A DNA stretch of 24,428 bases from a virus: positions 1-24,428 of the IMG/VR virus record IMGVR_UViG_3300013005_000165; one strand, 5' to 3'. A program made the position numbers and the translations under genes. This document shows, piece by piece, positions 6,690-24,428 of this stretch (position 1 is its first letter; each line of letters opens with the position of its first letter). The notes beneath the pieces were generated by a model. It had not been told where the DNA came from. It saw nothing but the letters and a program-made list of their open reading frames with translations, and did no database searches.

Positions 6690-6985
6690 CTTAAACTGTT
6701 TGCGTTATTAATTATTTGTTGTAAATTGTTCGTGCTTGGAATTCTTAATCGAGATTCAGTTGGTATTACTAGTGTTCCTTTACCAATACCATTAGCTGTT
6801 GCAATAACCCACCATTTTGATGCATCGCCGTAAAATTTATCGGCAAGTTTATCTAAACGTTCTATGCTGGTTGTTACAATATAAACATCATCAGCTCCAT
6901 ATGGTATTACTGGAACAATTGTTGTTGTTAAATATCGAGGCCCATTTGATTTTTTTAATACTTGTGTGGTGGCATATCTACTCAT
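6686..6985 (-). CDS. gp53-like baseplate wedge protein with LysM-type fold
   Basis: The product has 99 residues, starting at 6985 after an AAGGA site. The central part, ERLDKLADKFYGDASKWWVI (43-62), followed by ANGIG, LVIPTES and LRIP, is the LysM-like module of T4 gp53 and of Mu/P2 tail protein X. These small proteins sit in the inner baseplate. T4 gp53 is about twice as long, so this is a minimal form. It is encoded directly between the tube-initiator candidate and the hub gene, with a 4-base overlap with the hub gene, which supports a baseplate role. Confidence 0.8.
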   Translation of the reverse strand: MSRYATTQVLKKSNGPRYLTTTIVPVIPYGADDVYIVTTSIERLDKLADKFYGDASKWWVIATANGIGKGTLVIPTESRLRIPSTNNLQQIINNANSLR

Positions 6986-6999
6986 AGTTTTCCTTGTGT

Positions 7000-8823
7000 T
7001 TATCCAACAGTACCTGTTATCTTATTTTTTCGTTGGTTTCTGCGATCTTCTCGCGCGATATCTTTCAGCGATGGAATTGTATCAACATTATCTAATGCAT
7101 CACTTAACCAATTATCATTGCCTCGTTTTGGAGTCCCACTACCTTCATCGAATTTTTTAGCCAATGTATAGAAACGGCCGCCTTTTTGTGGAAGATGATC
7201 AGATATCATAGTAAAACTACAACGCACTGTTACTTTGAATGGCACTTCCATCATTGTAGGGTCGTTTTCAATGTTTATTTCCCAACTAGTATCAGCATCA
7301 TGCAGTGTGTAATCTAATGTTGTTAATAGTACAGGTTGTTGTACAAATAAATCACCCACTGTTATTCGCATCCATGGTGCTTGCATGGCAATACTGTCCG
7401 GTAAATATGTTGGAGCAGTGTAGCCGGCTAATGCATTTAGTTTTCTCCAAATTGGTTGTAGTTCATCGCGATCAGTTGCATAAACTGTAAAGTCTAAACT
7501 TACATCTCGATTGAATCCAGTATACTGATAGTTAGGATCTGCTCTGCCTATCATTGTTATTGGTGTCCAATTGCCTTGGAATGAATCTGACAATGAGCCT
7601 AATGTAGCTCGAAACACAATGATATCATCAGTGGCAAGTGCATCACCATTAACTAGTTTAGGTCCGGTCATATAAAATTTTATAAAATCTTGAGTAATTC
7701 CGGCCTTATTTAAAAGTTTGCCAATAATCGGACCTTGTAAGTCACTAAAAACTGGATTCCATTCGTATGCATGTGAAATTGTGCGTTGACTAAAATCAAT
7801 CACACTAACACGGTCTCCACGAAATGGTGTTACTTTTTCTAGTATTTTTTTAGTTCGAATCCATTTCCCAGGAGCATATGCTGGTTTTTTTAATGTTCCG
7901 CCTGTAAGACTAGCTGCTATATTATTAGCAATATCTGCAGTTGAAGTGACGCCAGGTAACCATTGTTTTGCTACATGGCTTCGTGCAGTAAAATCAGATC
8001 GTATTGCCCCAGCAGCATCATGAAATCCCCAACCATATTTAGTATTCAAATTGATTATTGAATATGCTCCCGCCGGCGTTAATGATGCTGCAGCATACGC
8101 AATTGCTATTCCACTACCACGTAATCCAGCACTAGCTCCATCTAATCGTCTAGGTAATACTGCCGAGCCAACTGAATCAGCGTTGTATCTAGCACGGAAA
8201 TCTGCATATGTAACGCCTGGAATTCTGCGTAATTGTCCTAGATCTAATGTTGAATATGTTGCCGATAAACTGTTTTCGATGTTATCTGCAGCTGCACTGG
8301 CAACTTGACTTATTTGCGGAATACCCATAGCTGATGCCATACCTAATCCAACTGTACTTAAAAGTTTTGCAGCTGAACCGCCTAAATTTATATTGGTGCT
8401 AGATGATTGTGGTGCCTTCCAATTTACGGCTTTACTAGCAGTAAATGTTAACTGCTCGTCGCCAAAATATGGAGCTGCTGGATTATTTATGTTAGCACCA
8501 GCTGGCGCAAAATCTATAGTTATCGGCGGCGTATTAAATACTCCGGGCAGTATTATCGGATTTGGATTTATTAAAGGTATTATTGCTGTTGATGGATTAT
8601 TATAAACGATACCGGGCTTTGAATCCGGTATATTAAATGGTGCATTAAATTGCGGATTAGGTTTATATGTTGGATTATTGGTAATATAAATTTTATCTGG
8701 AAGTATATTGAATGGGGCATTAAATTGTGTACCTACAGTTGATGGATTTAGATAAATTTTATCTGGAAGTATATTGAATGGTCTGGTGAATTGTGTGCCT
8801 GCCATTAATGTTGGGTTACTCAT
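7000..8823 (-). CDS. Baseplate / tail-tube initiator candidate (gp48/gp54 position)
   Basis: The product has 607 residues, starting at 8823 after an AAGGA site. The N terminus has three repeats of QFNAPFNILPDKIY type (about residues 11-24, 33-46 and 58-68). An Ala/Gly-rich middle follows. The C-terminal 250 residues contain FYMTGPKLVNGD, IIVFRATLGSLSDSFQGNW, MIGRADPNYQYTGFNRDVS, LQPIWRKLNALAGYTAP and ITVGDLFV. I recall this pattern from conserved tail proteins of T4-like marine phages; it suggests a tube-like beta-barrel. In gene order it follows the tape measure and precedes gp53 and the hub, the place where T4 keeps genes 48 and 54 (tube cap and initiator). The exact T4 counterpart is inferred from position and is not certain. 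Confidence 0.65.
   Translation of the reverse strand: MSNPTLMAGTQFTRPFNILPDKIYLNPSTVGTQFNAPFNILPDKIYITNNPTYKPNPQFNAPFNIPDSKPGIVYNNPSTAIIPLINPNPIILPGVFNTPPITIDFAPAGANINNPAAPYFGDEQLTFTASKAVNWKAPQSSSTNINLGGSAAKLLSTVGLGMASAMGIPQISQVASAAADNIENSLSATYSTLDLGQLRRIPGVTYADFRARYNADSVGSAVLPRRLDGASAGLRGSGIAIAYAAASLTPAGAYSIINLNTKYGWGFHDAAGAIRSDFTARSHVAKQWLPGVTSTADIANNIAASLTGGTLKKPAYAPGKWIRTKKILEKVTPFRGDRVSVIDFSQRTISHAYEWNPVFSDLQGPIIGKLLNKAGITQDFIKFYMTGPKLVNGDALATDDIIVFRATLGSLSDSFQGNWTPITMIGRADPNYQYTGFNRDVSLDFTVYATDRDELQPIWRKLNALAGYTAPTYLPDSIAMQAPWMRITVGDLFVQQPVLLTTLDYTLHDADTSWEINIENDPTMMEVPFKVTVRCSFTMISDHLPQKGGRFYTLAKKFDEGSGTPKRGNDNWLSDALDNVDTIPSLKDIAREDRRNQRKNKITGTVG
8686..8781 (-). repeat. Direct repeat encoding the N-terminal PFNILPDKIY repeats
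   Basis: Two identical 30-base copies lie at 8686-8715 and 8752-8781, 66 bases apart (22 codons), inside the start of the 607-residue baseplate gene. They encode PFNILPDKIY. A third, diverged copy (QFNAPFNI) lies near 8625-8655. The perfect DNA identity suggests recent duplication or recombination. Confidence 0.85.
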
Positions 8824-8831
8824 ATTGTTCC

Positions 8832-10607
8832 TTAACTAAAATAAGATGTATTCATGCCCTCACCAAAACTAGATCCTTGTTTTAGTGCTCGTGTTTGTTG
8901 TTGTATTGCTGTTACAATTGCAGTAGCCATTTGCATGATATCTGCATTACCGCTAGATGAACTAGTTCCTATATTAGTTCCTATGGCAACACCATCATTT
9001 TCCTGAAACCCTACTGTTCCAGCTGGCATTGAAATTACACCCCCTAATCCGGGAGGGATGATAGCATCTTCTACGACTGTAGTTAGTGCGCCATTGCCTT
9101 GTGTTGAATTTACTATTGTCGATCCTGCCGTTGATTTTGCTTCACTTAGTAGCTGGGTTTTTTTTCCAAATATTTGAGCTGACATAAACGTTTTACCTAG
9201 AGTTTTTAATTCGTCAGGTTTTAATTCTAGAAATGGATTATTTTTTTCTCGTTTTAATGATTCATCTTGCATGGATTTTTGTAATGCTGATATTACTGCA
9301 AAATTATTTTTTAAATCAGTGCCTTCTAACATCATCATGATTTTCAGGTCTTGCAAAACTTGTAACTGTTGCGCGGCTATTTCATTAGTAGTTCGCGTAT
9401 CATGTTCGTCAGCTTTCATTATTTTAGCAATATCTTCTGAATCAGCATTTACTGATTTTAACGCACTCATTAACTCATCACCAACTAACGTGAAATTAAT
9501 CCCATCCATTCCAGCTTCTTCTAACAGTTTCTTCTTCTGTAATGCTCTCGATAATGTAGCCTCGTCTGTTCCTAGCAACTCAGACATTTGACGTCTAGCA
9601 ATTAAATTGGTACTTAAAACATCGCCTTCTTGTTCTAGTATAGTCTTCAATATATCAGCTTGATCTGATGCTTTCCCTGCAATAGTTGCTTGTCGATACG
9701 CATCTGTCAAACTCTTGCCTCGCAAATTTGCTTGAGCTTTTTCATTTCCTACTAATCGACGTCCACTTAAAAGTTGATATTCTAACTCTTGTCCAATGCT
9801 TGATTCAATATTTAAAAGGGTATCACCTGTTTTAGCCATTTGTGCTAATGAAAATCCTAGTTGTTTAGCTTTAAGTGATGCAACCTCAAGCTCGCCTGGT
9901 ATGCGACCAAATTGTAATTGAACATCTGCAGTAGTTTGTGCAATGTCAGATACAATCGAATTAAAGACTCCAACTGTACCCTTAGGATCTAATGCTTTGG
10001 CAATTTCATCTGCTACTTGTATTTGAGTAGCTGCATTCTTGCCTGTTTGTGTAGCGTATGATGAATATGAATTTGCTAATTCTTCTGATAGGCCTAACTG
10101 TGTTTGTAATACATGTTGAGTAGCAATTAATCCTTGATATGTTGTATTATTTTCTTTGTCTAATTGATTAACCGTTGGTATTAACTTGTGTATTGAGCCA
10201 GCATACTTATTTGTTTGATCGTTTGTAATACCTAGATTTTTACCTATTTTTTGAAAACTATCTGCTAATTTTGCAGCTGATATACTATTAACTCCGAATG
10301 TTTTATTTATAGCCGAATTTCGGATTTCTAAAACAGACATTGATTTATTTATTTCATTGATGGATTTAGCTAAAAATTCATTGGTTTGAATTACTTTATC
10401 TAATCCTCGAGATATTTTACCGGCTATTGACAGTCTCGCATCCATACTGTCAACTGCATTTAATAATGCATCGACGGATAATTTAGCAATCCGAGTTAAA
10501 TTTTCTAAATCAGCTAGTGCTTTTTTACCATCATCAAATATATCACTATGCCTAGGTTGATGCTTTAATCTATTTATAATATGTGAAGTATTGTGCTGCA
10601 TATACAT
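8832..10607 (-). CDS. Tape measure protein (gp29-like)
   Basis: The product has 591 residues, nearly the length of T4 gp29 (590 residues, from memory). It is almost entirely helical with heptad-like stretches, for example residues 28-170 and 290-420. The ELEYQLLSGRRLVGNEKA segment and following helices match what I recall of tape measures in T4-like marine phages. The C terminus (MQMATAIVTAIQQQTRALKQ) is amphipathic. It lies directly after the chaperone pair and before baseplate genes, the classic place for the protein that sets tail length. ATG codons at 10607 and 10601 are both possible starts, and neither has a Shine-Dalgarno sequence. Translation may be coupled to the stop at 10626. Confidence 0.8.
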   Translation of the reverse strand: MYMQHNTSHIINRLKHQPRHSDIFDDGKKALADLENLTRIAKLSVDALLNAVDSMDARLSIAGKISRGLDKVIQTNEFLAKSINEINKSMSVLEIRNSAINKTFGVNSISAAKLADSFQKIGKNLGITNDQTNKYAGSIHKLIPTVNQLDKENNTTYQGLIATQHVLQTQLGLSEELANSYSSYATQTGKNAATQIQVADEIAKALDPKGTVGVFNSIVSDIAQTTADVQLQFGRIPGELEVASLKAKQLGFSLAQMAKTGDTLLNIESSIGQELEYQLLSGRRLVGNEKAQANLRGKSLTDAYRQATIAGKASDQADILKTILEQEGDVLSTNLIARRQMSELLGTDEATLSRALQKKKLLEEAGMDGINFTLVGDELMSALKSVNADSEDIAKIMKADEHDTRTTNEIAAQQLQVLQDLKIMMMLEGTDLKNNFAVISALQKSMQDESLKREKNNPFLELKPDELKTLGKTFMSAQIFGKKTQLLSEAKSTAGSTIVNSTQGNGALTTVVEDAIIPPGLGGVISMPAGTVGFQENDGVAIGTNIGTSSSSGNADIMQMATAIVTAIQQQTRALKQGSSFGEGMNTSYFS

Positions 10608-10617
10608 TTCAATTTAT

Positions 10618-10626
10618 TATAAATAT
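10618..10626 (-). promoter_or_regulatory. ATATTTATA element upstream of tape measure
   Basis: The coding strand reads GTTAATATTTATAATAAATTG. It lies only 11 bases before the first ATG (17 before the second) and touches the stop codon of the preceding frame. It is the closest to a start of the seven copies. If it were a -10 box the leader would be nearly absent. Confidence 0.35.
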
Positions 10627-10916
10627 TAACGTGTGGGTTTTCTGGTTTTTCTGCGTTCTTCAATTTCTTGTTTGATGCGTTCTTCCTCATCTTCCCGGTC
10701 GCGGTGCATTTTATTGATTTTACTTATATAAAATTTACGCAAAAATATTGGCATTGTGTAAATGGTGTCCCAGTCCCATCGACCGTCACCCCACCAAATT
10801 AGGTTGAATATTGATTCGTGTAGTTGTACTCGGTCTTCTGGTTTAAAACCAAAAAAGGTCTGTTCCAATTGGAAATGTTGATTGGAAGACGTCTCCTGTT
10901 TCGTCTTCAAACTCAT
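10626..10916 (-). CDS. Tail assembly chaperone, second frame (gpT-like), probably made by frameshift
   Basis: The frame can be read as 96 residues from an ATG at 10916, but no Shine-Dalgarno sequence precedes that ATG. The frame overlaps the upstream gp26-like gene by 74 bases in the +1 (equivalently -2) frame. The conserved-looking part starts near the upstream stop: FKPEDRVQLHESIFNLIWWG, then DWDTIYTMPIFLRKFYISKI and a charged, helical tail (DREDEEERIKQEIEERRK). Its place between the tube and tape measure genes matches the gpG/gpGT tail-assembly-chaperone arrangement. I infer it is mainly made as a C-terminal extension of the 253-residue protein (about 325 residues in total). Independent translation remains possible. 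Confidence 0.6.
   Translation of the reverse strand: MSLKTKQETSSNQHFQLEQTFFGFKPEDRVQLHESIFNLIWWGDGRWDWDTIYTMPIFLRKFYISKINKMHRDREDEEERIKQEIEERRKTRKPTR
10843..10857 (-). other. Candidate programmed frameshift site (CTT TTT TGG TTT TAA)
   Basis: The zero frame ends CTT TTT TGG TTT TAA, with the second frame reading on through the stop. A +1 slip of TTT on TTTT directly before TAA would join ...DLFWF to KPEDRVQL without a break. A slip on the upstream six-T run (10851-10856) could also serve, and so could a -2 shift. The placement at the end of a gp26-family gene before the tape measure fits known tail-chaperone frameshifts. The exact site is inferred. Confidence 0.5.
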
Positions 10917-11604
10917 ACGAAGTAATTAAGCCAGGTACATTTTTCATTACATGTGTTCGAAATGGCTTTGCATCGCGGGATAAAAAATCATAGCGTATAA
11001 ATTCTTCAATCTCTGCTGTGGATCTAGTGTCATTAACCTGTGTAATTATTTGACTCAATAGGTCCGATACCGTAATATCAGTAGCTGGATCATATGCTAG
11101 GTATGAATATTTTATGGTAGTTTGATCTGATACTTGGTATATGATTTCGCCTTCGGTGTCAGATTGCCAAACAATGTCTTTGTATTTTAACTCATCTAAT
11201 TTAACAACTCGCTCTAGTTGTTTGCCAGTTTTTGGCGATTGAACTAGTACTGGATAATCAGCTCCATATGCTAATATTCGAGCTTGGATAATCAATGCAT
11301 CTTTATCGCACGGTGCAATCTCACTCACAGCTACCGGAGTAACAATTAATGCTTCAAGCAATTTGTCAAACAATATTTGTTCGCGAATATATGATGTATT
11401 TGTTAGTATGTCCTCATCATATGCCGTCATGTGACGCATTTCAATTGTTCCATCGCTTAATGGATGTGTAGTTGGATAAACACGACCTTTACTAACAAGT
11501 TGTATAACTACTGATGGTAATTTGCTTTTTTGCTTGTTTTCGTATTGTTGGCGAGCTAGATTGATTATGTCCTGGTTGCCGATTCTGTCTGTTACTTTTG
11601 TCAT
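10843..11604 (-). CDS. gp26-family protein / tail assembly chaperone first frame (gpG-like)
   Basis: The product has 253 residues, starting at 11604 after AAAGGA. Residues about 28-130 (LPSVVIQLVSKGRVYPTTHP, then GTIEMRHMTAYDEDILTN, then LFDKLLEALIV and ILAYGADYPV) match the pattern of the T4 gp26 baseplate-protein family. The end, STFPIGTDLFWF, is also typical. T4 gp26 has been described as a hub-assembly protein. Proteins of this kind lying between tube and tape measure act as tail assembly chaperones in other phages, often with a frameshifted longer form. The overlap with the 96-residue frame supports that role here. The chaperone interpretation is inferred from position and overlap. The gp26-family relationship is from pattern recall. 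Confidence 0.7.
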   Translation of the reverse strand: MTKVTDRIGNQDIINLARQQYENKQKSKLPSVVIQLVSKGRVYPTTHPLSDGTIEMRHMTAYDEDILTNTSYIREQILFDKLLEALIVTPVAVSEIAPCDKDALIIQARILAYGADYPVLVQSPKTGKQLERVVKLDELKYKDIVWQSDTEGEIIYQVSDQTTIKYSYLAYDPATDITVSDLLSQIITQVNDTRSTAEIEEFIRYDFLSRDAKPFRTHVMKNVPGLITSYEFEDETGDVFQSTFPIGTDLFWF

Positions 11605-11628
11605 TTGTTTCCTTTATAACTTATTTAA

Positions 11629-11637
11629 TATAAATAT
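11629..11637 (-). promoter_or_regulatory. ATATTTATA element upstream of the gp26-like gene
   Basis: The coding strand reads CGTATATTTATATTAAATAAG, 25 bases before the ATG at 11604 and just after the terminator that follows the tube gene. The terminator-then-element order suggests a new transcript begins here. The extended sequence TATATTAAA is shared with the copy before the tube gene. Confidence 0.5.
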
Positions 11638-11645
11638 ACGTACAG

Positions 11646-11671
11646 TAAAAAAAGGGGCCGGAAAGCCCCTT
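11646..11671 (-). terminator. Rho-independent terminator after the tail tube gene
   Basis: On the minus strand AAGGGGC and GCCCCTT pair over seven bases around a TTTCCG loop, followed by a run of seven T residues that shares its first bases with the stem. It starts about 20 bases after the tube stop. It would separate the highly expressed tube message from the chaperone and tape-measure genes. Confidence 0.9.
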
Positions 11672-11689
11672 ATTACAATATTTTAATGA

Positions 11690-12211
11690 TTAGAAGTTTA
11701 AGAATGCCCAATCGTAACGAAGTGTCATTTCAATGTTGACAACTTCTTCACTGCCCCAATCCAAAGATCCAAAATTTGATTCTGTGATAAAGGCACCATT
11801 CAAGATCCATTCTTCAATAACCTCGCCTAATGGAGATAATTGATTGATGCGTATTAATTTTTTATAGAAAGATGAATATCCATCGCGACCTGTTGCTGAT
11901 TCATGATGCAAACGAACCCATTCCATTACTGATTGAGCTCCGGATGGTACAATTGCATCATACAATGTTACTGAGATAGTATTCCATTGAGTTTTACCTT
12001 TAACGTAACGTTTAACGTTGATATGGTCTAATGCAATTTCTCCATTTGTTAGTGAAGGCTTTGCACTTGCTTTAATTAAATACGCCGGAATATCATCAAT
12101 ATACATTATAAATTGATGAGCTTTTTTTGGCTCCCATGAATATGCAGTATTGAATATTTCATTGTCACTCGCAAATGCTAAGTTCGGGTTTATTTGATCA
12201 CTTAATGCCAT
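11690..12211 (-). CDS. Tail tube protein (gp19-like)
   Basis: The product has 173 residues, close to T4 gp19 (163). The start at 12211 follows AAGGA. Visible gp19-type features are AYSWEPKKAHQFIMYIDDIP near the N terminus, PSLTNGEIALDHINVKRYVK (about 53-72), KTQWNTISVTLYDAIVPSG, and the C-terminal GEVIEEWILNGAFI, ESNFGSLDWGSEEVVNIEMT, LRYDWAFLNF. The family forms stacked hexameric rings through which DNA passes, inside the contractile sheath. The gene lies directly after the sheath gene, as in T4, and is flanked on both sides by terminators, consistent with separate strong expression. Confidence in the family is high. Confidence 0.92.
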   Translation of the reverse strand: MALSDQINPNLAFASDNEIFNTAYSWEPKKAHQFIMYIDDIPAYLIKASAKPSLTNGEIALDHINVKRYVKGKTQWNTISVTLYDAIVPSGAQSVMEWVRLHHESATGRDGYSSFYKKLIRINQLSPLGEVIEEWILNGAFITESNFGSLDWGSEEVVNIEMTLRYDWAFLNF

Positions 12212-12233
12212 TTTATATAATCCTTATGTTTAA

Positions 12234-12242
12234 TATAAATAT
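12234..12242 (-). promoter_or_regulatory. ATATTTATA element upstream of the tail tube gene
   Basis: The coding strand reads CTGATATTTATATTAAACAT, 23 bases before the ATG at 12211 and about 10 bases after the sheath-gene terminator. The tube gene therefore looks like its own transcription unit, with this as its candidate promoter element. Confidence 0.5.
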
Positions 12243-12251
12243 CAGCAAAGT

Positions 12252-12277
12252 AAAAAAGGTAGAACCTAAGTCCTACC
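12252..12277 (-). terminator. Rho-independent terminator after the tail sheath gene
   Basis: On the minus strand GGTAGGA and TTCTACC form a seven-base-pair stem (one G-U pair) around a CTTAGG loop, followed by six T residues. It lies 25 bases after the sheath stop and before the candidate promoter of the tube gene. Confidence 0.85.
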
Positions 12278-12301
12278 CTTTATTTTAAATAATTTTACAT
12301 G

Positions 12302-14776
12302 TTATTCTGGAAAGCTTGCTCCTGTTGGTTGAATATTGAAATCTAAGATTATAAACTCAGCCGTACGAGTCGGTTGCAAAAATAATTGACCGTATAAAAT
12401 ATTTTGATCAATTATATCAGACGTATTATTAGTTGAATCCATTACAACACGGAAAGCAGATAGTCCTTGCTGAGATTTTACTTGTTCTAAATAAGGATTA
12501 ACAATGGCTAAGAATCGATTGCGAGTTGCTGTGGTATTTTGTTCGAATACTAAATACTTGGTTGCAGATGCAATATATTTTTTAACTTCAATTAACGCTC
12601 TACGCACACTTACACGGTCTAATGCACTTGGTCTTGCTTGTAAGGTCTTTTGTCCCCAAACACAAATACCTTCATTAGGGAAGTTTGCAATAGGATTAAT
12701 ACGAGCTGAATACAATGTGTCGCGCATCGTTTGTGATAAATTCACATAAGTGTCTGTTGCTGAGGTAATTCCTCCACGTGTCAAGCCGGCAGGCGCATAC
12801 CATGGTGCACCAACTGCATCATTGAATGATATTACTCCAGGCATAACTACTGATGGTGGAACCCATACCGGAACATTCTTATCATTTTTAACGCGAACCC
12901 AAGGCCAATATGCTGCTGTATAATTGCTATCTAATGTAGTTAATTGATTGGTAACCGTTGTTAATGTATCAGTAAGTGCATTTGAATCCATTATGTAGAA
13001 TGTGTCTTGACGTGTTTCACACAAGTTTCTTGCCGCAGTTGTTACATTGCTATGCAAACTATCAATAATACCTGGAGTGATCAACATGTTGATATCGTAA
13101 TAATCTGCGTTAGCTAACAATGCAAATGCTTTATTATATGCAATTGTACCAGTAGTAGTTGTTCCACTGCAATCAAATCCAAATGTATTTGTGTTAGAAA
13201 TCCATTTACCAGAATATTTTGGTAAGTTTGGACGAGCTCCATCAAATCCTCCTTGGAAACCAACAATGAATTTACGTGTATTAAATGATATATTAGTTGC
13301 AAATGAACCAGAAACTAAAGCTGATTCCAATGAACCTGAATATGCTGCGGTTGATGACGGGAATGCTGCTGCTGCATCTTGATTCACATTACCTAGATAG
13401 AAATCGGAATTGCTACCTGTGTTTGAACCAGATGTTGGTACTGGTGCCAAGTAATTCAAGTTGTTGATGTTTGTAAAATCAAATCCAACATAGTTTTTAG
13501 GACTATATGTTGTTACAACTTGTGATGTTAAATAAGAAGTAGCCGTTAAATTCAATGAACCAGATGCCATTGGAATTGGCGAATTCATTGCACGGAAACC
13601 AAATGGTGCCAATGTGTTGCTGTTTGAACGATTGCTTACACTTGAATCAACTTCTACGCGAATAAATTTAGAAAGATTTGGATAATCTCCATTAACTAGA
13701 ATATCGCCAGCATCGGTAACTGTTTGATAGCGATCTCCAATTACTAAGGCAATATATCTAGGAGATTGTGGATCTAAATTAACATTGAGAAACGTTTCAA
13801 CTAAATCTGGTTGGGCGTCTGTATCTTGAGATGAATATGGAGTGTTTGCAATGTTTGCTGTGTTAACTCGACGAACTTCTACTGTAAATGTTGCATACCC
13901 AGCTGGATCTGTTACTTCTGGTGATGTTCTAATATCTCGAATACCTACTTTAACCTCAGTGTTAACAGATGTACCATGTGATATTGTGTGAAACTTAAAC
14001 AAGTTTTTAACAGCAGTACCAATTTTTTGAGATGTAATCCATGGTGTTGCTGCTGATGCATAATCTGTTAAGAATTCATAGTTAGTAAATTCAAACAATT
14101 CCATTGTTACTTGTCCAAGATTTGCAAACAAACTGCTAGCAGTTTTATTTTCATATTGAACATATACTGGGTAATCATTTGATTTGGGACTTGACCCAAA
14201 AACTTTGTTGATGTATTTGTTGCTTGTGCTAACAATAGAGCCGGAAATTGCAATTGCCTCATCAACTAAAAATGCTCCCGTAAATCCAATTGCGTCATCT
14301 TGCGGTGATGTAAAAGAACCAGATACTTTGATTGCAAATGAACCAGAACCAGCATCAGTTAAAATGGAATCTTCAAACAATGGATTTGAATATGATCCTG
14401 ATGGTAATATTGCTTGTGTTGGGTGTAACACGTGAGTTACTACTTGAACGGCACTAGCGCCAGATCCTGATTTTGCAATGATTGCCAAACCACCATTTGT
14501 TAGTTTGTAACCATTTTCATATAAAAGACGTGTTACTGTGATTGAATTCCCATTCTTCAAATAATCTCGAACCACAAACGGTACATATGTGTCATCTGAA
14601 TAAGATCCAAATGTTGCAACATAATCACCATATGATGAAATTTTTGTAGGAATGAGTGCAGGACCTTTCACGGTTGGTCCGACAATTGCTGCTCCGATTT
14701 GGGCAACGGCTCCTGGTAAAAACGATTGATCTACTTCGTTCGTAAATACTCCGGGCGAAACTATTCTTTCTGCCAT
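12302..14776 (-). CDS. Contractile tail sheath protein (gp18-like)
   Basis: The product has 824 residues, longer than T4 gp18 (659). The start at 14776 follows AAAGGAG. The N terminus, IVSPGVFTNEVDQSFLPG, then IGAAIVGPTVKGPALIPTKI, is diagnostic of phage sheath proteins. The C-terminal 110 residues (VSVRRALIEVKKYIASATKY, NRFLAIVNPYLEQVKSQQGL, GQLFLQPTRTAEFIILDFNI) are the conserved inner sheath domain that interlocks with neighbouring subunits. The middle is variable and Ser/Gly/Thr-rich and probably forms extra surface domains. The protein polymerises around the tube and contracts during injection. It is preceded by an ATATTTATA element and followed by a terminator. Confidence 0.95.
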   Translation of the reverse strand: MAERIVSPGVFTNEVDQSFLPGAVAQIGAAIVGPTVKGPALIPTKISSYGDYVATFGSYSDDTYVPFVVRDYLKNGNSITVTRLLYENGYKLTNGGLAIIAKSGSGASAVQVVTHVLHPTQAILPSGSYSNPLFEDSILTDAGSGSFAIKVSGSFTSPQDDAIGFTGAFLVDEAIAISGSIVSTSNKYINKVFGSSPKSNDYPVYVQYENKTASSLFANLGQVTMELFEFTNYEFLTDYASAATPWITSQKIGTAVKNLFKFHTISHGTSVNTEVKVGIRDIRTSPEVTDPAGYATFTVEVRRVNTANIANTPYSSQDTDAQPDLVETFLNVNLDPQSPRYIALVIGDRYQTVTDAGDILVNGDYPNLSKFIRVEVDSSVSNRSNSNTLAPFGFRAMNSPIPMASGSLNLTATSYLTSQVVTTYSPKNYVGFDFTNINNLNYLAPVPTSGSNTGSNSDFYLGNVNQDAAAAFPSSTAAYSGSLESALVSGSFATNISFNTRKFIVGFQGGFDGARPNLPKYSGKWISNTNTFGFDCSGTTTTGTIAYNKAFALLANADYYDINMLITPGIIDSLHSNVTTAARNLCETRQDTFYIMDSNALTDTLTTVTNQLTTLDSNYTAAYWPWVRVKNDKNVPVWVPPSVVMPGVISFNDAVGAPWYAPAGLTRGGITSATDTYVNLSQTMRDTLYSARINPIANFPNEGICVWGQKTLQARPSALDRVSVRRALIEVKKYIASATKYLVFEQNTTATRNRFLAIVNPYLEQVKSQQGLSAFRVVMDSTNNTSDIIDQNILYGQLFLQPTRTAEFIILDFNIQPTGASFPE

Positions 14777-14831: not shown

Positions 14832-15101
14832 TTATTCTGCCGGAGTAAATGTGCCTGATTGAATATCAATTTGACCTTCGCCGTATGCATCTTTTAGTGA
14901 TGCTAACAACGTTTCTTCTTGTTGAATTAGTTCATCAGTTTTTGCAATGTATTGATTTTTTGTTTGTTGAATGGATTCGAGCTGTTGTTGTAGTCGATTT
15001 TCTTCGATTGTAACATAGCCTAGTTCTGTTGCATTTTGGGCAAATAGATTGCGAAGTGTTTGAATTGCATCTACATGTTGTTTGTCTAATTTTTTTGTCA
15101 T
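14832..15101 (-). CDS. Small coiled-coil protein upstream of the sheath
   Basis: The product has 89 residues, starting at 15101 after AAAGG. Residues about 5-72 are predicted by eye to be one continuous helix with coiled-coil character, rich in Gln, Glu and Leu (ENRLQQQLESIQQTKNQYIA). A short tail follows (GEGQIDIQSGTFTPAE). It has no membrane segment. Similar small coiled-coil proteins are common near structural genes of T4-like marine phages, but I know no assigned function. A chaperone or fibre-assembly role is possible and unproven. The upstream region has a degenerate form of the ATATTTATA element (AAATTTATTATATTAAATAG). Confidence 0.75.
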   Translation of the reverse strand: MTKKLDKQHVDAIQTLRNLFAQNATELGYVTIEENRLQQQLESIQQTKNQYIAKTDELIQQEETLLASLKDAYGEGQIDIQSGTFTPAE

Positions 15102-15150: not shown

Positions 15151-16572
15151 TTATGCTAAAGAAACAGATCTCCATCCGCCATTTAACCACACATGCATCT
15201 TATATACTGCACCGTTATCTCCAAATATCATTTCACCTTGAACGCCAGTCCATCCGGGAGTGCTACTAACAGTGGTAGGTAAAACAATTGAGCCAGATGG
15301 GGTAACTTTGAATGCATCTTTTCTATTATTATCGTCTACTCCATTTCCTATAATAAATAAAGAAGTGGTGTCTCCGTGTGTATTATATTGTCCTGAAACA
15401 TGTTGGTATGAACCTGATGCTATTGTTTGATTTCCTTCTGCATGTGAACCATCTCCTTGTGCTACTGTGCCATTTCCTTCTGCATGTGAATAGTTTCCTG
15501 ATGCAATTGTATCAGTTCCTTCTGTATGTGAATAATCTCCAATTGCTTGAGTACCAGCTCCTTCTGCATGTGAACCAACTCCGATTGCTTGAGTACTATT
15601 TCCTTCTGCGTGTGAAGAGCCTCCGATTGCTTGGGTGCTCTGACCTTCCGCATGAGAAGAGCCTCCGATTGCTTGAGTACCATTTCCTTCTGCATGTGAA
15701 TGAGGTCCTAATGATACCGTGTTTCGTCCTTCTGCATGTGAACCTTCTCCGATTGCTTGAGTACCTTGTCCTTCTACGTGTGAATTATATCCGATTGCTT
15801 GAGTACTATTTCCTTCTGCGTGTGAATAGTATCCCCCAATTGGGTATCCTCCACTCCAATTTCCAATACCATATGTAATATTTCCAATAATTGCTTGGGA
15901 GCAAGTTACTGATATATCAGTTAATGTTATTAATGTGTTAGAGCCAGAGTAACTTGAAGAAGCTACTATAAATGTTGTTAATCCATATGCTGCATCATAT
16001 ACTGTATCATCAAATAGTATAGAATCACCTGAGATATATTCAGCTGATACATCACTGTAACTTGCGTCTAATGTACATACACCATCGATGACTGTGGTAG
16101 CTAAATATCCTTGATTTGAGCCAGCAAATGTAGTATTTCCTTCTGCGTGTGAGTAATCTCCAATTGATATTGATCCTGATCCTTCTACATGTGATCCTCG
16201 TCCGAATGCTGTAGTGCCAGTTCCTTCTGCATGTGAGAATTTACCAGAGGCTGTAAGATCTAAATGACCGTTTAATAGTGAATAATTTGCTGAGTCGTAT
16301 GTGAGGGCGCTAAAACCGCCTAAAGTACCATTATTGTTAAATTGTACAGCTTGGTTGTTTCCGCCTAGGGTTATCGATGCAGCATATGAAGCACTTAACG
16401 CATATGAAGCGCTTGTTACTGTTCCAACAACATTAGAGGCTGTTACAAATGAAGCAGTTGTTGCTGTTCCTTGCAATGATCCGGTTATGCCTCCGGTTAC
16501 AATTAGAGATCCGGTAATTTGTGAATTACCTTCAGAAAGGAATCCATTCTTTATTTTAAATTCGTTTGCCAT
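15151..16572 (-). CDS. Tail fibre / adhesin with SHAEG (YadA-head-like) repeats
   Basis: The product has 473 residues. The N terminus (FKIKNGFLSEGNSQITGSL) and the following TGSLQGT..ASF..ASYALSASYAA stretch resemble attachment modules of marine phage fibres and are shared with the 1394-residue fibre upstream. Thirteen SHAEG/SHVEG/SHTEG repeats of 14 residues follow: three at about 113-154, then an insert of about 95 residues, then ten at about 250-389. These resemble the left-handed beta-roll repeats of YadA/Hia-type trimeric adhesins, and such proteins are normally trimers. The C terminus (LFIIGNGVDDNNRKDAFKV, then MHVWLNGGWRSVSLA) looks like a fibre tip. It probably recognises the host surface. 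No peptidase or chaperone domain is evident. Confidence 0.85.
   Translation of the reverse strand: MANEFKIKNGFLSEGNSQITGSLIVTGGITGSLQGTATTASFVTASNVVGTVTSASYALSASYAASITLGGNNQAVQFNNNGTLGGFSALTYDSANYSLLNGHLDLTASGKFSHAEGTGTTAFGRGSHVEGSGSISIGDYSHAEGNTTFAGSNQGYLATTVIDGVCTLDASYSDVSAEYISGDSILFDDTVYDAAYGLTTFIVASSSYSGSNTLITLTDISVTCSQAIIGNITYGIGNWSGGYPIGGYYSHAEGNSTQAIGYNSHVEGQGTQAIGEGSHAEGRNTVSLGPHSHAEGNGTQAIGGSSHAEGQSTQAIGGSSHAEGNSTQAIGVGSHAEGAGTQAIGDYSHTEGTDTIASGNYSHAEGNGTVAQGDGSHAEGNQTIASGSYQHVSGQYNTHGDTTSLFIIGNGVDDNNRKDAFKVTPSGSIVLPTTVSSTPGWTGVQGEMIFGDNGAVYKMHVWLNGGWRSVSLA
15406..15825 (-). repeat. Ten tandem 42-base units encoding SHAEG repeats
   Basis: Ten consecutive in-frame 42-base units (14 codons) each begin with the codons for SHAEG, SHVEG or SHTEG; six of them continue as xxTQAIGx. 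Units differ at several bases, and the two middle units (SSHAEGQSTQAIGG-like) are the most alike. The frame is maintained throughout, so change in unit number would alter fibre length without breaking the gene. Confidence 0.92.
16111..16236 (-). repeat. Three further SHAEG-type 42-base units
   Basis: Three units encode SHAEGTGTTAFGRG, SHVEGSGSISIGDY and SHAEGNTTFAGSNQ. They are separated from the ten-unit block by about 285 bases coding for an unrelated insert, which suggests a domain was inserted into an older continuous repeat array. Confidence 0.85.
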
Positions 16573-16897: not shown

Positions 16898-17617
16898 TTA
16901 TAGTCCGAATCGGGTTCTAGTTGCGTTATAATTTTGTAGGATTTCTTGAGAGGTAAGAATACGATTATACATACTAAAATTATAACAACTACCATTCCAC
17001 CAATTGTCGGAAACTCTAGTAGCTAATCTTATACTATTAAAATTAGCGGTTAATGCTTGGCTTACTGTAGTCCGTAATACACCATTGACATATATTTGTT
17101 GTCCTGCAGAATTTAAGATTACGGTATATATGCTAATGTTGTTAGCATCTGCTGTTGGTGTCCATGTATATACAAAGTAATCTACATTTTGTGTTGGACC
17201 ACCGGTACCTCTAAAACCACGACCTGCATTACCCCAAATTTCCAGGTTAAATGTACGGAATGTTGAAGAGTTATTATTAGATAATCCAAACAGTGCTTGT
17301 CTATTAGCTTGATTTGAATCCATTGTGTTGCTTTTCATAACTATATTAAATGTATAGTTATTTGCGGTGCTACCACTGTATGGGATAATAATTGAATCAT
17401 TCACCCCATCAAATACAATATTACCGCCATTTCCACTTGAAAATGTAGGTCCATTAGTTAATGTACCATTACTACCGCCTCGAGATAAATCTATCCATGT
17501 AGATGATCCAGAAACATATGATTTTGTATTAGCTGCATCTAAATAAAGTACTAATCCATCTGTTACAGTGTTTGGGCCTTTTATAACTTGCGATCCTGAT
17601 TGTATGCGTATTGCCAT
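16898..17617 (-). CDS. LamG / concanavalin-A-like lectin-fold fibre protein
   Basis: The product has 239 residues, starting at 17617, four bases after the large fibre's stop; AGGA lies upstream. The sequence DGLVLYLDAANTKSYVSGS (21-39), then TWIDLSRGG, NGTLTNGPTFSSGNGG, IVFDGVNDSIIIP, then QQIYVNGVLRTTV and YNRILTSQEILQNYNATRTR at the C terminus, is the standard pattern of LamG/concanavalin-A-like jelly-roll domains in phage tail proteins. These domains often bind carbohydrate, so a role in recognising host surface glycans is likely. No catalytic residues of a glycosidase are evident. It is probably a distal or accessory part of the fibre system encoded around it. Confidence 0.82.
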   Translation of the reverse strand: MAIRIQSGSQVIKGPNTVTDGLVLYLDAANTKSYVSGSSTWIDLSRGGSNGTLTNGPTFSSGNGGNIVFDGVNDSIIIPYSGSTANNYTFNIVMKSNTMDSNQANRQALFGLSNNNSSTFRTFNLEIWGNAGRGFRGTGGPTQNVDYFVYTWTPTADANNISIYTVILNSAGQQIYVNGVLRTTVSQALTANFNSIRLATRVSDNWWNGSCYNFSMYNRILTSQEILQNYNATRTRFGL

Positions 17618-20600: not shown

Positions 20601-21806
20601 TTGAGCAAATGAAGCGGTACCTAATAAACTTCCAGTAAATCCAGTAGTTGCAACAATCGACCCTGTTACAGTTAATGAACCGGTAATAGTTGCAGATCCT
20701 GTAAATGGAAATGCTGGGATAGATGATCCACCACTACCAGATGCTTGATATAAATATTTTTGAAATATTAATGCTTGCGATATTCCAATATTTGCTGGAG
20801 TAATAGATGAACTTTGTAGCACATATCTAGAACCATATTCTGTTGCACCAAATCGGCTTACCACAAACTCTTTAACATTAGGTTGCATGCTGGTCCAGTA
20901 ATCTATTCTGGTTAGCTTCCATGGTGTAGTTGCAGAGCCGGGAGCTGTTACTGTGTATGATCCGTTTCGTACAGGATTTGATTCACTAACTGCTAACAAT
21001 CTTACGCCAGATGATGCAGTTACGCCTCCAATTACTCCCAATGCTCCACTTGCTGTTGCTGTTAATGTAGCCCCAGCGCCAGGAAACCCAACATATGTTG
21101 ATCCTGATGCATAAGTAGATAGTGGCAATGGCGCTGTTGTAACAGTATCTATGAATAGTATAGGAAGTGTTTGTGTTGATGTAGATGGTGACTGTGAAAA
21201 TACAATTGAGCTAGTCCCAATTATAGGATTAGGAGTTTGTTGTATATAAGTTTGGTTGGCACCTGTTGTGCCTCGAAGTCCTGTAATTTGAGATGGATAC
21301 ACCTCAGAACCGGTATCATAATATGATACCCGTGTTAAAACAAAAGATGATGTAGGACTTCCTAGATCGGTTATTGAATATAATCCATTTCTTAATGCAG
21401 CCGCCTCACTTCTAACTAATATAATATCATCTGCTAATGGAGTAGTATTATCTATTTTACCGGGTTGATTAAATTGTCCTAATGCAATAGAGCCAGTCGA
21501 TATTAAAGTTGCGCCACTGCCAGATACGCCGTTATTGTATGTACATGGCATTAATCTAGCACTAGTTACTAGATCTGCAAAGTATAATTCGCCTTCTGCA
21601 GATCCCGATGTAGGTGGTGTCGTTGCACTATTTAAAAGAACATATTCACCATTTAATCCAGATAATGCATCCCATCGATACAATGTATTAGCTGATTGAT
21701 CTAAGTATAAATATTTAATAGAACCAGTAGGCTGCGGGAAATTTGCAGATGATGAATACTGCAATATTTCTGATTCTACTTGTGCTAATTTTAATTGTCT
21801 TCCCAT
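17622..21806 (-). CDS. Large modular tail fibre / structural protein
   Basis: The product has 1394 residues from the ATG at 21806, chosen because AAGGTGG precedes it and it overlaps the gp15 stop as TAATG; a GTG nine bases upstream would add three residues. Near the N terminus, two copies of a module with GATL, NGxYxxT and LTR motifs occupy about 85-215 and 220-345. Several TGSLxGTASFAxTxSYALNA repeats follow (about 375-430, 505-540 and 965-1000), then a central domain of unknown type. The C-terminal part has SFLVEDDTRPDASPFVIDN and a final domain (SGSFIVYSLPTASYDTAFFE ... WTTKCIIRGL) that I recall from other environmental phage fibres. It is probably a trimeric fibre. The host target is unknown. 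Confidence 0.8.
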   Translation of the reverse strand: MGRQLKLAQVESEILQYSSSANFPQPTGSIKYLYLDQSANTLYRWDALSGLNGEYVLLNSATTPPTSGSAEGELYFADLVTSARLMPCTYNNGVSGSGATLISTGSIALGQFNQPGKIDNTTPLADDIILVRSEAAALRNGLYSITDLGSPTSSFVLTRVSYYDTGSEVYPSQITGLRGTTGANQTYIQQTPNPIIGTSSIVFSQSPSTSTQTLPILFIDTVTTAPLPLSTYASGSTYVGFPGAGATLTATASGALGVIGGVTASSGVRLLAVSESNPVRNGSYTVTAPGSATTPWKLTRIDYWTSMQPNVKEFVVSRFGATEYGSRYVLQSSSITPANIGISQALIFQKYLYQASGSGGSSIPAFPFTGSATITGSLTVTGSIVATTGFTGSLLGTASFAQTASYALNAVSSSYAATASLAPLYLPLTGGTISGNVSVLGTASIAFLNVTYESASVIYSSGSNQFGDATNDTQTLIGRTIVSGSLEVTGSANLPSITGSLFGTASFATTSSYALNALSASWAPSVSPFPFTGSALITGSLGVTGSVNVSGSTTQIGNNTLVGQTNLSGSIYVSGSINALADLTLAGTFRLDPAQDPGGTNLTASFLFTSASNTAQGYDLYYRQYGNLVKFKWLEGGISSGLLYGGIISASGATIYVSSGSGVILDPNASFSSEINPQFTYVTWPNYSASATYLTSSQNTYIYVDSVGTIHQQIDFFDQTQYEQAIPLGRATHPNYSTITGVGSNVQTTYDSDSQQSAFIRAFGPLKIDGFSINAHPGTLGFGIGNGVAFQMGGFYPQNPNSPSHYHGNAFATSSIARAYRSGSGVRLDNNGGAFYTTVDPDYWDDGTGVLNTMAAGDWQIQRVFANPVTGRVVIYYGQNIYTTKINALQYLATDSFTEGEFTAHSLIFVGYLVLKGQTNNLTDATNNSIINGGIFRNIAGGSSSGGAIAQTLNDLGDVTITTPSNGQALIYNSGIWENGTPRLATTASYVLNAVSASFATSASWAPDTTFPYTGSAIVTGSIILTGSLQVAVPSTAGATSELARFKATDSTSTLQIINYATNQGVFVPTIRTLHSASSTSVGLQLIAQIGNDGATNTNPAMTFLVMSQSAAVGQIRNRPLFAWENNNTSSMALTTVGLAIGTNLLTPSASLHVNNTSSFNSFLVEDDTRPDASPFVIDNVGRVGIGKLSPSASLDITGSVLVTGSVSITQNVSASRASISSSNGTVSGSTLTVFGSGSTLPVFTVQGSQGELFSVTDSFSGSLFSVNDISGIPILGVFSDRTTLIGDFQDPMLITTAKTVQTNSGSFIVYSLPTASYDTAFFEYSVRSGSNARAGTIMAIQSGSAVNFAETTTTDFGSTSAVSFTVIITGSNMALTGSSTSGAWTTKCIIRGL

Positions 21807-23017
21807 TAAATCCACCTTCCATTTATAATTATAACATCGGTAGATTCTATAGGATATCCTAATGCTGCGGTATCAAACACAATGGTTTGAATTGTATAAT
21901 CACTAGGCGTCCATGCATACAATTGTTTGTCAATATATTGGCCGTTGATATACACATCAAACTCATTAACACTTGCTATTTGATTGGTTACTGGATTGAT
22001 TGCTGCATAGTTAGATACACTAACCGTTGTTGAATCAACCCATACAGCTTGTTGATCAGTTAAATTAGTTAGATAAATCATGGCTTGTGCCGTAAGTGTT
22101 GCTGTTGTGGCTCCGGTTACATTTATATTTGCACCAGATGAAGCTGCACGTAAAATTGCTGCTGGTACAATTGTAGTGCTAAATAAATCAACAGCTACAT
22201 CAACATATTGGTTAAATGATAATCTCTTAACCGAATACATTTTTTTAAGAGTTTCAACTCGACTTTCCTGAGCTGACAACAATGTGCCTTGCACCGTTAT
22301 TGGTACTGTAGCTCGTACTAATCGATCTTCACCGACTGTGTTTACTGTTTCAAAACTAAATTGACCAATAGCGGTTGGAAATTTATTGAATTCATTACCC
22401 CAACTGAAACGTCCGTACGGTAATATTTGATCTACAACTGAATTCAATTGAGATGTAAAGTCACACCAAATCATCATGTCATATTCAATAGTAACATATT
22501 TAGGGACATCAATCACATAAATTTTTTCGGAGTCTGCTGGTTTTGGAATTGGTATTGGAAACAATTCATCTTCATATCGATTACGTTCATTGTATCGGCT
22601 GCGATATACAAGATGATTTGCTGCTTGTGGTCGATTGACATCCAATGTTCTTTGGGCATCTCTTTCAACTACACTGTTTCTTTTCAACATGATAACTGGA
22701 GATTGAAGCATTCCTTTTTCGTCACGTAAATATCCTAAACGGCGTACATTGTCCCATTTTTCACCATTAGCAAAAATTACAGGAATCGGAATCAATTGAT
22801 CTGCTGCTGTTATCTGTGGACGCATTTCATTTTCAATAAACCATTTGATTGCAAAGTCAATATCATACACCGTACGTTGTTTAGTTCGTATTACATCATC
22901 ATCACGACGAGTTTGATAAGCTCTGTTCAATATCAGATCATCCGCTAATCCTTCAGTTCGTGTTGGATTAGGTTTATTTGTTTTTCGATCGATATCTTCT
23001 CTGTTCAATCTAGGCAT
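21806..23017 (-). CDS. Tail terminator / sheath stabiliser (gp15-like) with C-terminal extension
   Basis: The product has 403 residues; T4 gp15 has 272. The start at 23017 overlaps the preceding stop as TAATG after AAAGGA. IPIPVIFANGEKWD (about 76-89) and YVTIEYDMMIWCDF (about 174-187), followed by LNSVVDQILPYGRFSWGNEF, align with T4 gp15 regions as I remember them (RVPITYASKEHF and YELSIFTRYEDDMFQIVEQI). T4 gp15 caps the tail tube and sheath before head joining. The last 120 residues or so (INVTGATTATLTAQ ... VNEFDVYINGQYIDKQLYAW) are not part of gp15 and resemble fibre-type beta domains. The gene directly precedes the fibre cassette, so the extension may anchor collar or tail fibres. Confidence 0.75.
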   Translation of the reverse strand: MPRLNREDIDRKTNKPNPTRTEGLADDLILNRAYQTRRDDDVIRTKQRTVYDIDFAIKWFIENEMRPQITAADQLIPIPVIFANGEKWDNVRRLGYLRDEKGMLQSPVIMLKRNSVVERDAQRTLDVNRPQAANHLVYRSRYNERNRYEDELFPIPIPKPADSEKIYVIDVPKYVTIEYDMMIWCDFTSQLNSVVDQILPYGRFSWGNEFNKFPTAIGQFSFETVNTVGEDRLVRATVPITVQGTLLSAQESRVETLKKMYSVKRLSFNQYVDVAVDLFSTTIVPAAILRAASSGANINVTGATTATLTAQAMIYLTNLTDQQAVWVDSTTVSVSNYAAINPVTNQIASVNEFDVYINGQYIDKQLYAWTPSDYTIQTIVFDTAALGYPIESTDVIIINGRWI

Positions 23018-23538
23018 TAAAATCCTTTATATGAAGGAGGCATATTGTTTCCTCCGCGTCTTATATTTGTTATTCCTTGTGGTGTTTGTCTTGTTGCATG
23101 GGCATCACAAACTACAGATACACTGTAACCATGGTTTGAACCATTTGGCCACGTGTCTGGATTTTTACCAGCAAAGTATTGATTTGCATCAACATTGTCT
23201 AGTTCATAATATTCATTGTCCCAAAATATAATATCACCAACTTCCGGATAAAAATCAGCTTTTTCTAGAATATCACGGGATACTGCAAATTGAGCTGTTC
23301 TGGTATATGTATGACCGTAATCATCCATGGTTGCTGTTTTTGTTTCTTTTGTGATTAAGCACGGAATTAAAATTGAATCGTAATATGATTTTAATTCTGC
23401 TTCGCCGTATAAGTTTGAGTTGCTTGCTGCTACAATTAATTTAAAAAACTCAATTTCGGTATCGATAATTGAATTTAATAATTCTGAGTTAACTGCTGCT
23501 AAAAATTTAGCATCTCGTATTCCTCCAAATAATGCCAT
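23017..23538 (-). CDS. Neck / head-completion protein (gp14-like)
   Basis: The product has 173 residues; T4 gp14 has 256. The start at 23538 follows AAGGAG, 12 bases after the gp13-like stop. NLYGEAELKSYYDSILIPCL (about 42-61), then TATMDDYGHTYTRTAQFAVS, FYPEVGDIIFWDNEYYELDN (about 96-115) and QYFAGKNPD, fit the pattern of gp14-type neck proteins in marine T4-like phages. These proteins close the portal and provide the docking face for tails. The order gp13-gp14-gp15, with tight spacing, supports the call. Similarity to T4 itself is weak, so the assignment rests partly on gene order. Confidence 0.65.
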   Translation of the reverse strand: MALFGGIRDAKFLAAVNSELLNSIIDTEIEFFKLIVAASNSNLYGEAELKSYYDSILIPCLITKETKTATMDDYGHTYTRTAQFAVSRDILEKADFYPEVGDIIFWDNEYYELDNVDANQYFAGKNPDTWPNGSNHGYSVSVVCDAHATRQTPQGITNIRRGGNNMPPSYKGF

Positions 23539-23550
23539 AATTTATACTCC

Positions 23551-24428
23551 TTAACCAACATATATTTTTAATGGCACTTTGCCAAGTATTTCATTCATCT
23601 GTGTAGCTTCTGTATTTTGACGTGTTAACATTTGTTCTTTTGTTAGTTTGTCTAAGAATTCTCGAAGCTGCGTAATCAATGTTTCTTTTTCTGATTGCGC
23701 ACTAGATACTAATTCAGATCCATTCAGTGTTACTTCGGAATTTGGTATAGGTACTGTCGAATATTTATTACGAACAAACCCTAACATTTCTTTTGCAAGT
23801 GATGATCCGTATTTAATAATCCACGCACGCCCCATATCATTAATGCTACTGTATGTTTGATATGTATATGGTATATTGGATGCGTCACTTACTGCCCCTT
23901 TAACAAGTGCGGTATTACCAAATAAAAGGGCATCATTATTTTTTTGTTCTTCAAATAAAAACTCAAACCAAACTTGGCCATAAAATATAGTTGATGATGC
24001 AGAACCGGTACCTGATGTTGGCACTGGCCAGAACTTAATATCATCTCCATGTACTTCAAATGAATAATGAGATTTACGTACTTGATCATTAAACTCAATT
24101 GCTTGCAATCTCATTAAATCAGCATTGATTGGCATCATCATAAAACTAATTGACGGCGAGAATCCTCCAAAGTTAAATGAATCAAGTAATTGCTGTGAAC
24201 CCAATCCAGTACCAACGAATGGGTCAAAATATCTAACAATTGCTGGCGGCGGATTATGTAGTACCCGTTTAATTTCGATCGAACTAGTATTTGATAATGT
24301 GATACCTAAAGAATTAGATACAGCTGTTCTAATACTATATGTTTGCTGGCCGGGCGTCATATCTATCCTAGCTTTGTACCAACGTGCGGTTCCTCCTGAA
24401 TCAGCTTCTGTACCATATGCTTTTGATA
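23551..24428 (-). CDS. Neck protein (gp13-like), 5' end cut by window edge
   Basis: The frame is open from the window edge to the stop at 23551. The ATG at 24360 is not the true start: upstream codons stay open and encode GGTARWYKARID, which runs naturally into MTPGQQTYSI. At least 292 residues are present; T4 gp13 has 309. SYSFEVHGDDIKFWPVPTSG-like residues (about 125-145 of the visible part) and the C-terminal helix with KIYVG are features I associate with gp13-type neck proteins of marine T4-like phages. Gp13 joins gp14 to seal the packaged head. The identification rests on pattern recall plus order before gp14 and gp15. Confidence 0.65.
   Translation of the reverse strand, partial: SKAYGTEADSGGTARWYKARIDMTPGQQTYSIRTAVSNSLGITLSNTSSIEIKRVLHNPPPAIVRYFDPFVGTGLGSQQLLDSFNFGGFSPSISFMMMPINADLMRLQAIEFNDQVRKSHYSFEVHGDDIKFWPVPTSGTGSASSTIFYGQVWFEFLFEEQKNNDALLFGNTALVKGAVSDASNIPYTYQTYSSINDMGRAWIIKYGSSLAKEMLGFVRNKYSTVPIPNSEVTLNGSELVSSAQSEKETLITQLREFLDKLTKEQMLTRQNTEATQMNEILGKVPLKIYVG

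Follow-up and report, generated by a model that had tools for sequence, protein, structure and literature searches.

A probable phage tail fibre built on YadA-head-like repeats carries a recurring insert at a near-fixed repeat position

The window, by which we mean the whole stretch of DNA analyzed, comprises a 24,428-base virus record. A gene for a fibre protein with SHAEG repeats lies within it (Table 1). On one side of this gene are encoded an 89-aa protein, a tail sheath, a tail tube, and baseplate-wedge-like and baseplate-hub-like proteins. On the other side lie a LamG-like protein (16898-17617, minus strand), which gave a lectin match in Pfam at E 8.5e-07, and a 1397-aa protein that matches no family convincingly. 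The closest sheath among sequenced phages is that of Microcystis phage Mel-JY01, at 48%. Amid the tail and baseplate genes, a 440-aa protein (2409-3731, minus strand) matches part of the DNA polymerase families (phrog_17, E 1.6e-08). At the start of the window, two adjacent small ORFs (1-306 and 318-800, both minus strand) have the N-terminal sequence ENMRRFGTKNL in common and diverge afterwards. This motif, which was not found in the other loci examined, is possibly a shared targeting or cleavage signal.

The fibre protein contains 13 units of 14 residues, ten with the motif SHAEG, two with SHVEG, and one with SHTEG. Three units (residues 113-154) are separated from the other ten (residues 250-389) by the insert. 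These residue positions confirm the original prediction of 13 repeats split three plus ten by an insert of about 95 residues, and the coordinates it gave for the unit DNA, 15406-16236, proved exact. The 42-base units that it described are also recovered by Tandem Repeats Finder, which reports a 42-base period with 9.6 copies and a score of 316 at 15430-15834. A total of 84 residues lie C-terminal of the last SHAEG unit; they begin with a degenerate unit 14 directly after unit 13, and the C-terminal stretch comes next. By our reading of the alignments the insert begins within unit 3, past approximately its 10th or 11th residue, and what looks like two arrays is therefore better seen as a single roll that has a domain set into one of its turns.

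Table 1. Features of the fibre gene and its neighbours in the window
Feature	Coordinates	Strand	Basis or remark
SHAEG fibre gene, 473 aa	15151..16572	-	ATG start
N-terminal residues 1-60, proposed virion-attachment end	16393..16572	-	53/60 residues kept in relative L002; attachment inferred
Variable linker, residues 61-112	16237..16392	-	46% of bases identical to relative L094
Units 1-3, YadA-head-like array	16111..16236	-	repeat positions
95-residue insert, residues 155-249, predicted small beta domain in the turn of unit 3	15826..16110	-	recurrence and model (mean pLDDT 86)
Units 4-13 of the array	15406..15825	-	repeat positions; period-14 strands in model
Degenerate unit 14, QHVSGQYNTHGDTT	15364..15405	-	repeat positions
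C-terminal cap and tip	15154..15363	-	with unit 14: 73/83 aligned residues identical to L002
89-aa protein adjoining the fibre gene, possible assembly partner	14832..15101	-	61% identical in L094, 97% in relative L004
Tail sheath, backbone marker for finding relatives	12302..14776	-	Pfam/PHROGs

The repeats belong to a known family. Pfam YadA_head (PF05658) matched the fibre, whose units have a period of 14 residues, in five stretches at E 1.1e-13 and 51.6 bits (cut-off 25), which places the match well beyond chance. The nearest PDB structures by sequence are BpaC (7o23), YadA (1p9h), and a Burkholderia head (3s6l), and a Foldseek search with the monomer model described below returned YadA-type heads as its top matches (3s6l, E 4.6e-4; 7o23, E 8.3e-4). 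The YadA-head-like character claimed at the outset is thus backed by three lines of comparison. In PHROGs the protein falls into phrog_25468, a function-unassigned family (E 5.3e-39). Like the heads of YadA, BpaC, BoaA, and CbpF, which consist of 14-residue left-handed beta-roll repeats, the fibre would form such a roll, judging from its sequence and fold matches. Unlike the YadA-type bacterial adhesins, it is encoded among phage tail genes and has no membrane anchor domain in Pfam. We rejected assignment to the trimeric autotransporter adhesins (type Vc), as there is no C-terminal membrane-anchor barrel and YadA_head is the only Pfam family above its cut-off. Assignment as a peptidase-G2 fibre was also rejected. 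SHAEG proteins on Priestia plasmids are annotated with a peptidase G2 domain, whereas the Pfam peptidase G2 autoproteolytic domain is absent here at E up to 1.

YadA-type repeats are already known in phage fibres, and in this respect the fibre is of a known kind. Cyanophage S-SZBM1 has a YadA-domain structural protein listed among its virion proteins, according to PMC9146016, and a pelagiphage tail fibre is described in PMC3909814 as having a C-terminal YadA domain with reduced read coverage there. The 'tail spike' of Flavobacterium phage immuto carries a SHAEG array like the one here, but gave no match to a profile of the insert.

An AlphaFold2 monomer model of residues 90-473 was computed from 15 sequences (L133 was listed but left out). 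The model has a mean pLDDT of 75.2 and a pTM of 0.62, with the five models running from 62.5 to 75.2. Strands of period 14 form a repeat-periodic roll, which is clearest after the insert. The core of the insert (pLDDT 87-95) and the units that follow it (mostly approximately 81-90) bear out, at the level of the monomer, the expected beta-roll with an insert. The units before the insert (56-63) and the junction after it (60-72) do not, and the last ~80 residues are also low (53-82).

Modelled alone from 25 sequences, the insert gave a mean pLDDT of 86.0 and a pTM of 0.77, with six strands and short helical turns. From this model we confidently predict a folded small beta domain rather than the loop that had been suggested. 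A Foldseek search of the PDB with the insert model returned no match that reached E 0.001. VIA-align placed GH110 galactosidases first (Z 7.5) and scored the Klebsiella phage K1 capsule lyase (7w1c) at Z 6.7, over 83 residues with an rmsd of 3.6; the best E from Foldseek for this lyase was 0.014. Unrelated barrels, namely those of ubiquitin-activating enzymes and EF-Tu, scored nearly the same as the lyase (Z 5.6-6.6). These matches support a predicted 'small beta-barrel' and no closer kinship. Among viral models, three matches to the insert fold were found at E under 0.001, all nameless in the tables used. What makes the K1 lyase of interest is a barrel mounted on a trimeric solenoid, where it lines a carbohydrate pocket. 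Its 'rider' is a small beta-barrel-like domain that juts from a turn of a trimeric beta-solenoid, as the insert may do here, and PMC8822698 describes it as lining a second carbohydrate pocket that is important for adsorption. The lyase itself is a right-handed beta-helix enzyme, unlike the fibre, and a Z of 6.7 can be reached by a common barrel arrangement.

The insert recurs. A profile HMM built from 14 inserts was run on 4887 ORFs from loci gathered with the SHAEG protein or the sheath, a biased sample. Its 27 rows reduced to 24 copies plus that of the window once duplicates and near-duplicates (among them L003, L008, L012, L014, L028, L089, L094, L117, and L118) were omitted, leaving an alignment of 25 copies that come from the window and 18 loci, 19 viral records in all. 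In every copy the insert directly precedes a SHAEG-type unit, at nearly the same repeat position, and the H and the last G of that unit are invariant. A repeat unit, usually SHAEGxxTxAG, also stands before the insert in 24 of the 25 copies, the exception being L038. Among 69 distinct SHAEG ORFs from 80 loci, 16 carry the insert at E up to 1e-3; it occurs singly in 14 of them, in two copies in one, and in three copies in another. Two of these 16 ORFs (L011 and L012) come from nearly the same virus. The sole match outside SHAEG-type ORFs came from L008, whose copy of the same gene has a broken frame; absence elsewhere is an unfair test because the loci were gathered with SHAEG or sheath queries. 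The insert had been called unrelated, which holds with respect to the repeats but not more widely, as many homologues of it exist. One further locus, L035, contains a 2749-aa SHAEG ORF (4993-13239) with several long inserts between its repeat groups, of which one matches the insert profile strongly and one weakly.

The point of insertion may also have a counterpart among bacterial heads. In BpaC-type rolls, loop insertions occur where two layers meet, after position 14 of the first and before position 1 of the second, as stated in PMC9543794. Transferring this BpaC numbering to the fibre ourselves, we read the insertion point as probably the between-layer turn that tolerates loops.

Beyond these loci the insert was not recovered. 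A single-sequence tblastn search of 50,697 records of sequenced phages, which has limited reach, gave no match at E up to 0.1, and none of eight SHAEG loci from a scan of bacterial genomes matched the insert profile at E up to 1. The copy in the window has no Pfam or PHROGs matches. Across the 14 insert members, one match to VasX_N (Pfam, E 0.0027, in one member) and three to PHROGs (E 0.027 or worse) were weak and judged to be chance, as was the one PDB sequence profile match (E 6.6). There is thus no convincing match in Pfam, PHROGs, or PDB sequences. Our search of the open-licence literature turned up no account of an insert of this kind within a phage SHAEG or YadA array, and among the matches listed for the string SHAEG there was unrelated text only. 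In the literature searched, neither the module nor its recurrence at a near-fixed position appears to have been described.

Comparison with the relative L094 revealed that the centre of the fibre gene is divergent. At 72.7% of bases identical, the fibre gene is the least conserved against L094 of the 15 genes compared. Six other genes are 97-100% identical, among them 23551-24360, 23017-23538, and 10626-10916, which are identical in all bases, and 21806-23017, at 99.9%. The divergence is concentrated within the gene. Base identity is 89.4% over the first 60 codons and 90.2% over the last part, compared with 46.2% in the linker, 61.1% in units 1-3, 69.1% in the insert, and 70.7% in units 4-13. 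The centre therefore appears to have been replaced, or to have diverged fast, on a nearly unchanged backbone. Other divergent genes are 14832-15101 (73.3% of bases identical), 8832-10607 (81.5%), and 7000-8823 (85.3%). The last two, on the minus strand and without a PHROG match, come next in divergence after the fibre and 89-aa genes. At the protein level, identity in L094 is 62% for the fibre, 61% for the 89-aa neighbour, 94% for the sheath, and 90% for the LamG-like protein; in L004 it is 56% for the fibre, 97% for the 89-aa neighbour, and 93% for the sheath. Pattern scans of DNA for more copies of the near-identical genome returned only contigs already in the set. In a wider comparison that took in more distant relatives, 59 were scored for the protein encoded beside the 89-aa gene. 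In most of them a different protein sits there, and five of the 59 have at least three SHAEG motifs at this place; 20 of these slot proteins are cut by the contig start, and the selection rule was mechanical, so some rows may be other open frames.

Unit number also differs between lineages, with 3+10 units in the window, 2+10 in L002, and 1+8 in L004. The last units of the window and L002 arrays correspond in order, while the best matches of inner units are out of order (unit 4 of the window matches unit 10 of L002, and unit 10 matches unit 9). Between units, the same residue is encoded by the same codon in 73.6% of 640 comparisons. Codon use in other genes would predict 45.8%, and shuffling within the array gives 60.8%; none of 1000 simulations of either kind reached the observed value. 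This high same-codon use points to descent by duplication. Repeat expansion has been described for BpaC, according to PMC9543794.

The homogeneity of the unit DNA and the non-collinear inner units are both consistent with units being gained and lost often enough within one population to act as a length switch. Near-identical contigs were sorted by hand, starting from 61 pairs and leaving out loci on the same contig and pairs at ~92%, which gave 16 groups. Whole arrays could be compared in 14 groups, a contig end blocking L005/L028 and L041/L117. Unit number was constant in 13 of the 14, although this test is weak because many of the contigs are probably the same virus sampled repeatedly. In the remaining group, L008 lacks 85 bases within the array relative to the otherwise matching L002. 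This deletion would favour a switch, but it disrupts the frame and could have arisen through misassembly of the repeat. We accordingly consider a length switch very improbable, and the near-identical contigs lend no support to rapid phase variation by unit number. The suggestion that 42-base units could expand or contract holds between lineages, and the codon homogeneity agrees with it; it does not extend to frequent in-frame change, the only change within a group being the frame-breaking one.

Taken together, a gene in the tail module, a conserved end that would serve for attachment, and a variable centre make it probable that the protein is the distal, receptor-binding tail-fibre adhesin of a myovirus, a trimeric roll with a side insert. 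Its trimeric state, its place in the virion, and its contact with a receptor we infer, and its folds are predicted. The low model confidence before the insert and at the junctions, and the presence of other divergent genes in the window, weigh against this reading. The lectin match of the LamG-like protein, a second candidate receptor binder, favours an alternative: the SHAEG protein would serve as a structural shaft or spacer, and receptor binding would fall to the LamG-like protein or to the C-terminal tip. In keeping with this alternative, the protein encoded next to the sheath in L165 and L166 ends, judged by eye, in a similar C-terminal part. Against it, the LamG-like protein is far less divergent in L094 than the SHAEG protein, and the C-terminal cap and tip are conserved too. 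We regard a mere shaft as unlikely.

A tail-fibre adhesin of this kind would most probably work as follows. It would be fixed to the virion by its conserved first 60 residues, and the 13-14 repeat layers would build one continuous trimeric left-handed beta-roll, with the conserved C-terminal cap and tip closing the trimer. One small beta domain per chain, in the turn of layer 3, would jut sideways from the rod. The receptor might be contacted by the exposed roll faces, by the insert, or, on the model of the K1 lyase 'rider', by a pocket between the insert and a neighbouring subunit. Two processes would generate diversity: the centre of the gene is replaced or diverges fast, and 42-base units are slowly gained and lost.

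By analogy, the insert is a plausible receptor-binding part. Besides the rider there is a side-face precedent in CbpF, whose CEACAM1-binding site is a lateral loop of the roll (PMC12012533); the CbpF loop has eight residues, compared with 95 in the insert. The rider also suggests a different role, since PMC8822698 also reports that it contacts the neighbouring subunit and that mutating it lowers thermal stability. The insert might then be mainly a trimer clamp or folding aid that bridges subunits, with specificity residing in the roll surface or the C-terminal tip. The mean column entropy of the insert does not differ between strands (2.06 bits) and loops (2.01 bits). We therefore rejected its loops as hypervariable sites, and the lack of especially variable loops would suit a clamp. 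The insert is missing from most SHAEG ORFs and so is not required for every such fibre, which we also count on the side of a clamp. A clamp, however, need not differ so much between close relatives, in which 55 of 94 and 60 of 95 insert residues are identical, and the rider lines its carbohydrate pocket in addition to contacting its neighbour. On balance a role mainly as a clamp seems rather unlikely.

For the insert as a receptor-binding part, we tentatively put forward, as a possibility still short of an even chance, that phages plug this undescribed domain into one particular turn of YadA-type rolls, with up to three copies per fibre in the loci examined, so that a receptor or glycan site faces sideways from the rod at selected heights. 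If this reading is true, fibre length, set by the units, and side domains could vary independently. A recurring folded domain without a convincing family match would then represent a reusable receptor-binding part of phages among uncultured viruses. The module would be a clear target for structural work, and a phage parallel to the capsule-lyase rider and to CbpF, which binds through a side loop.
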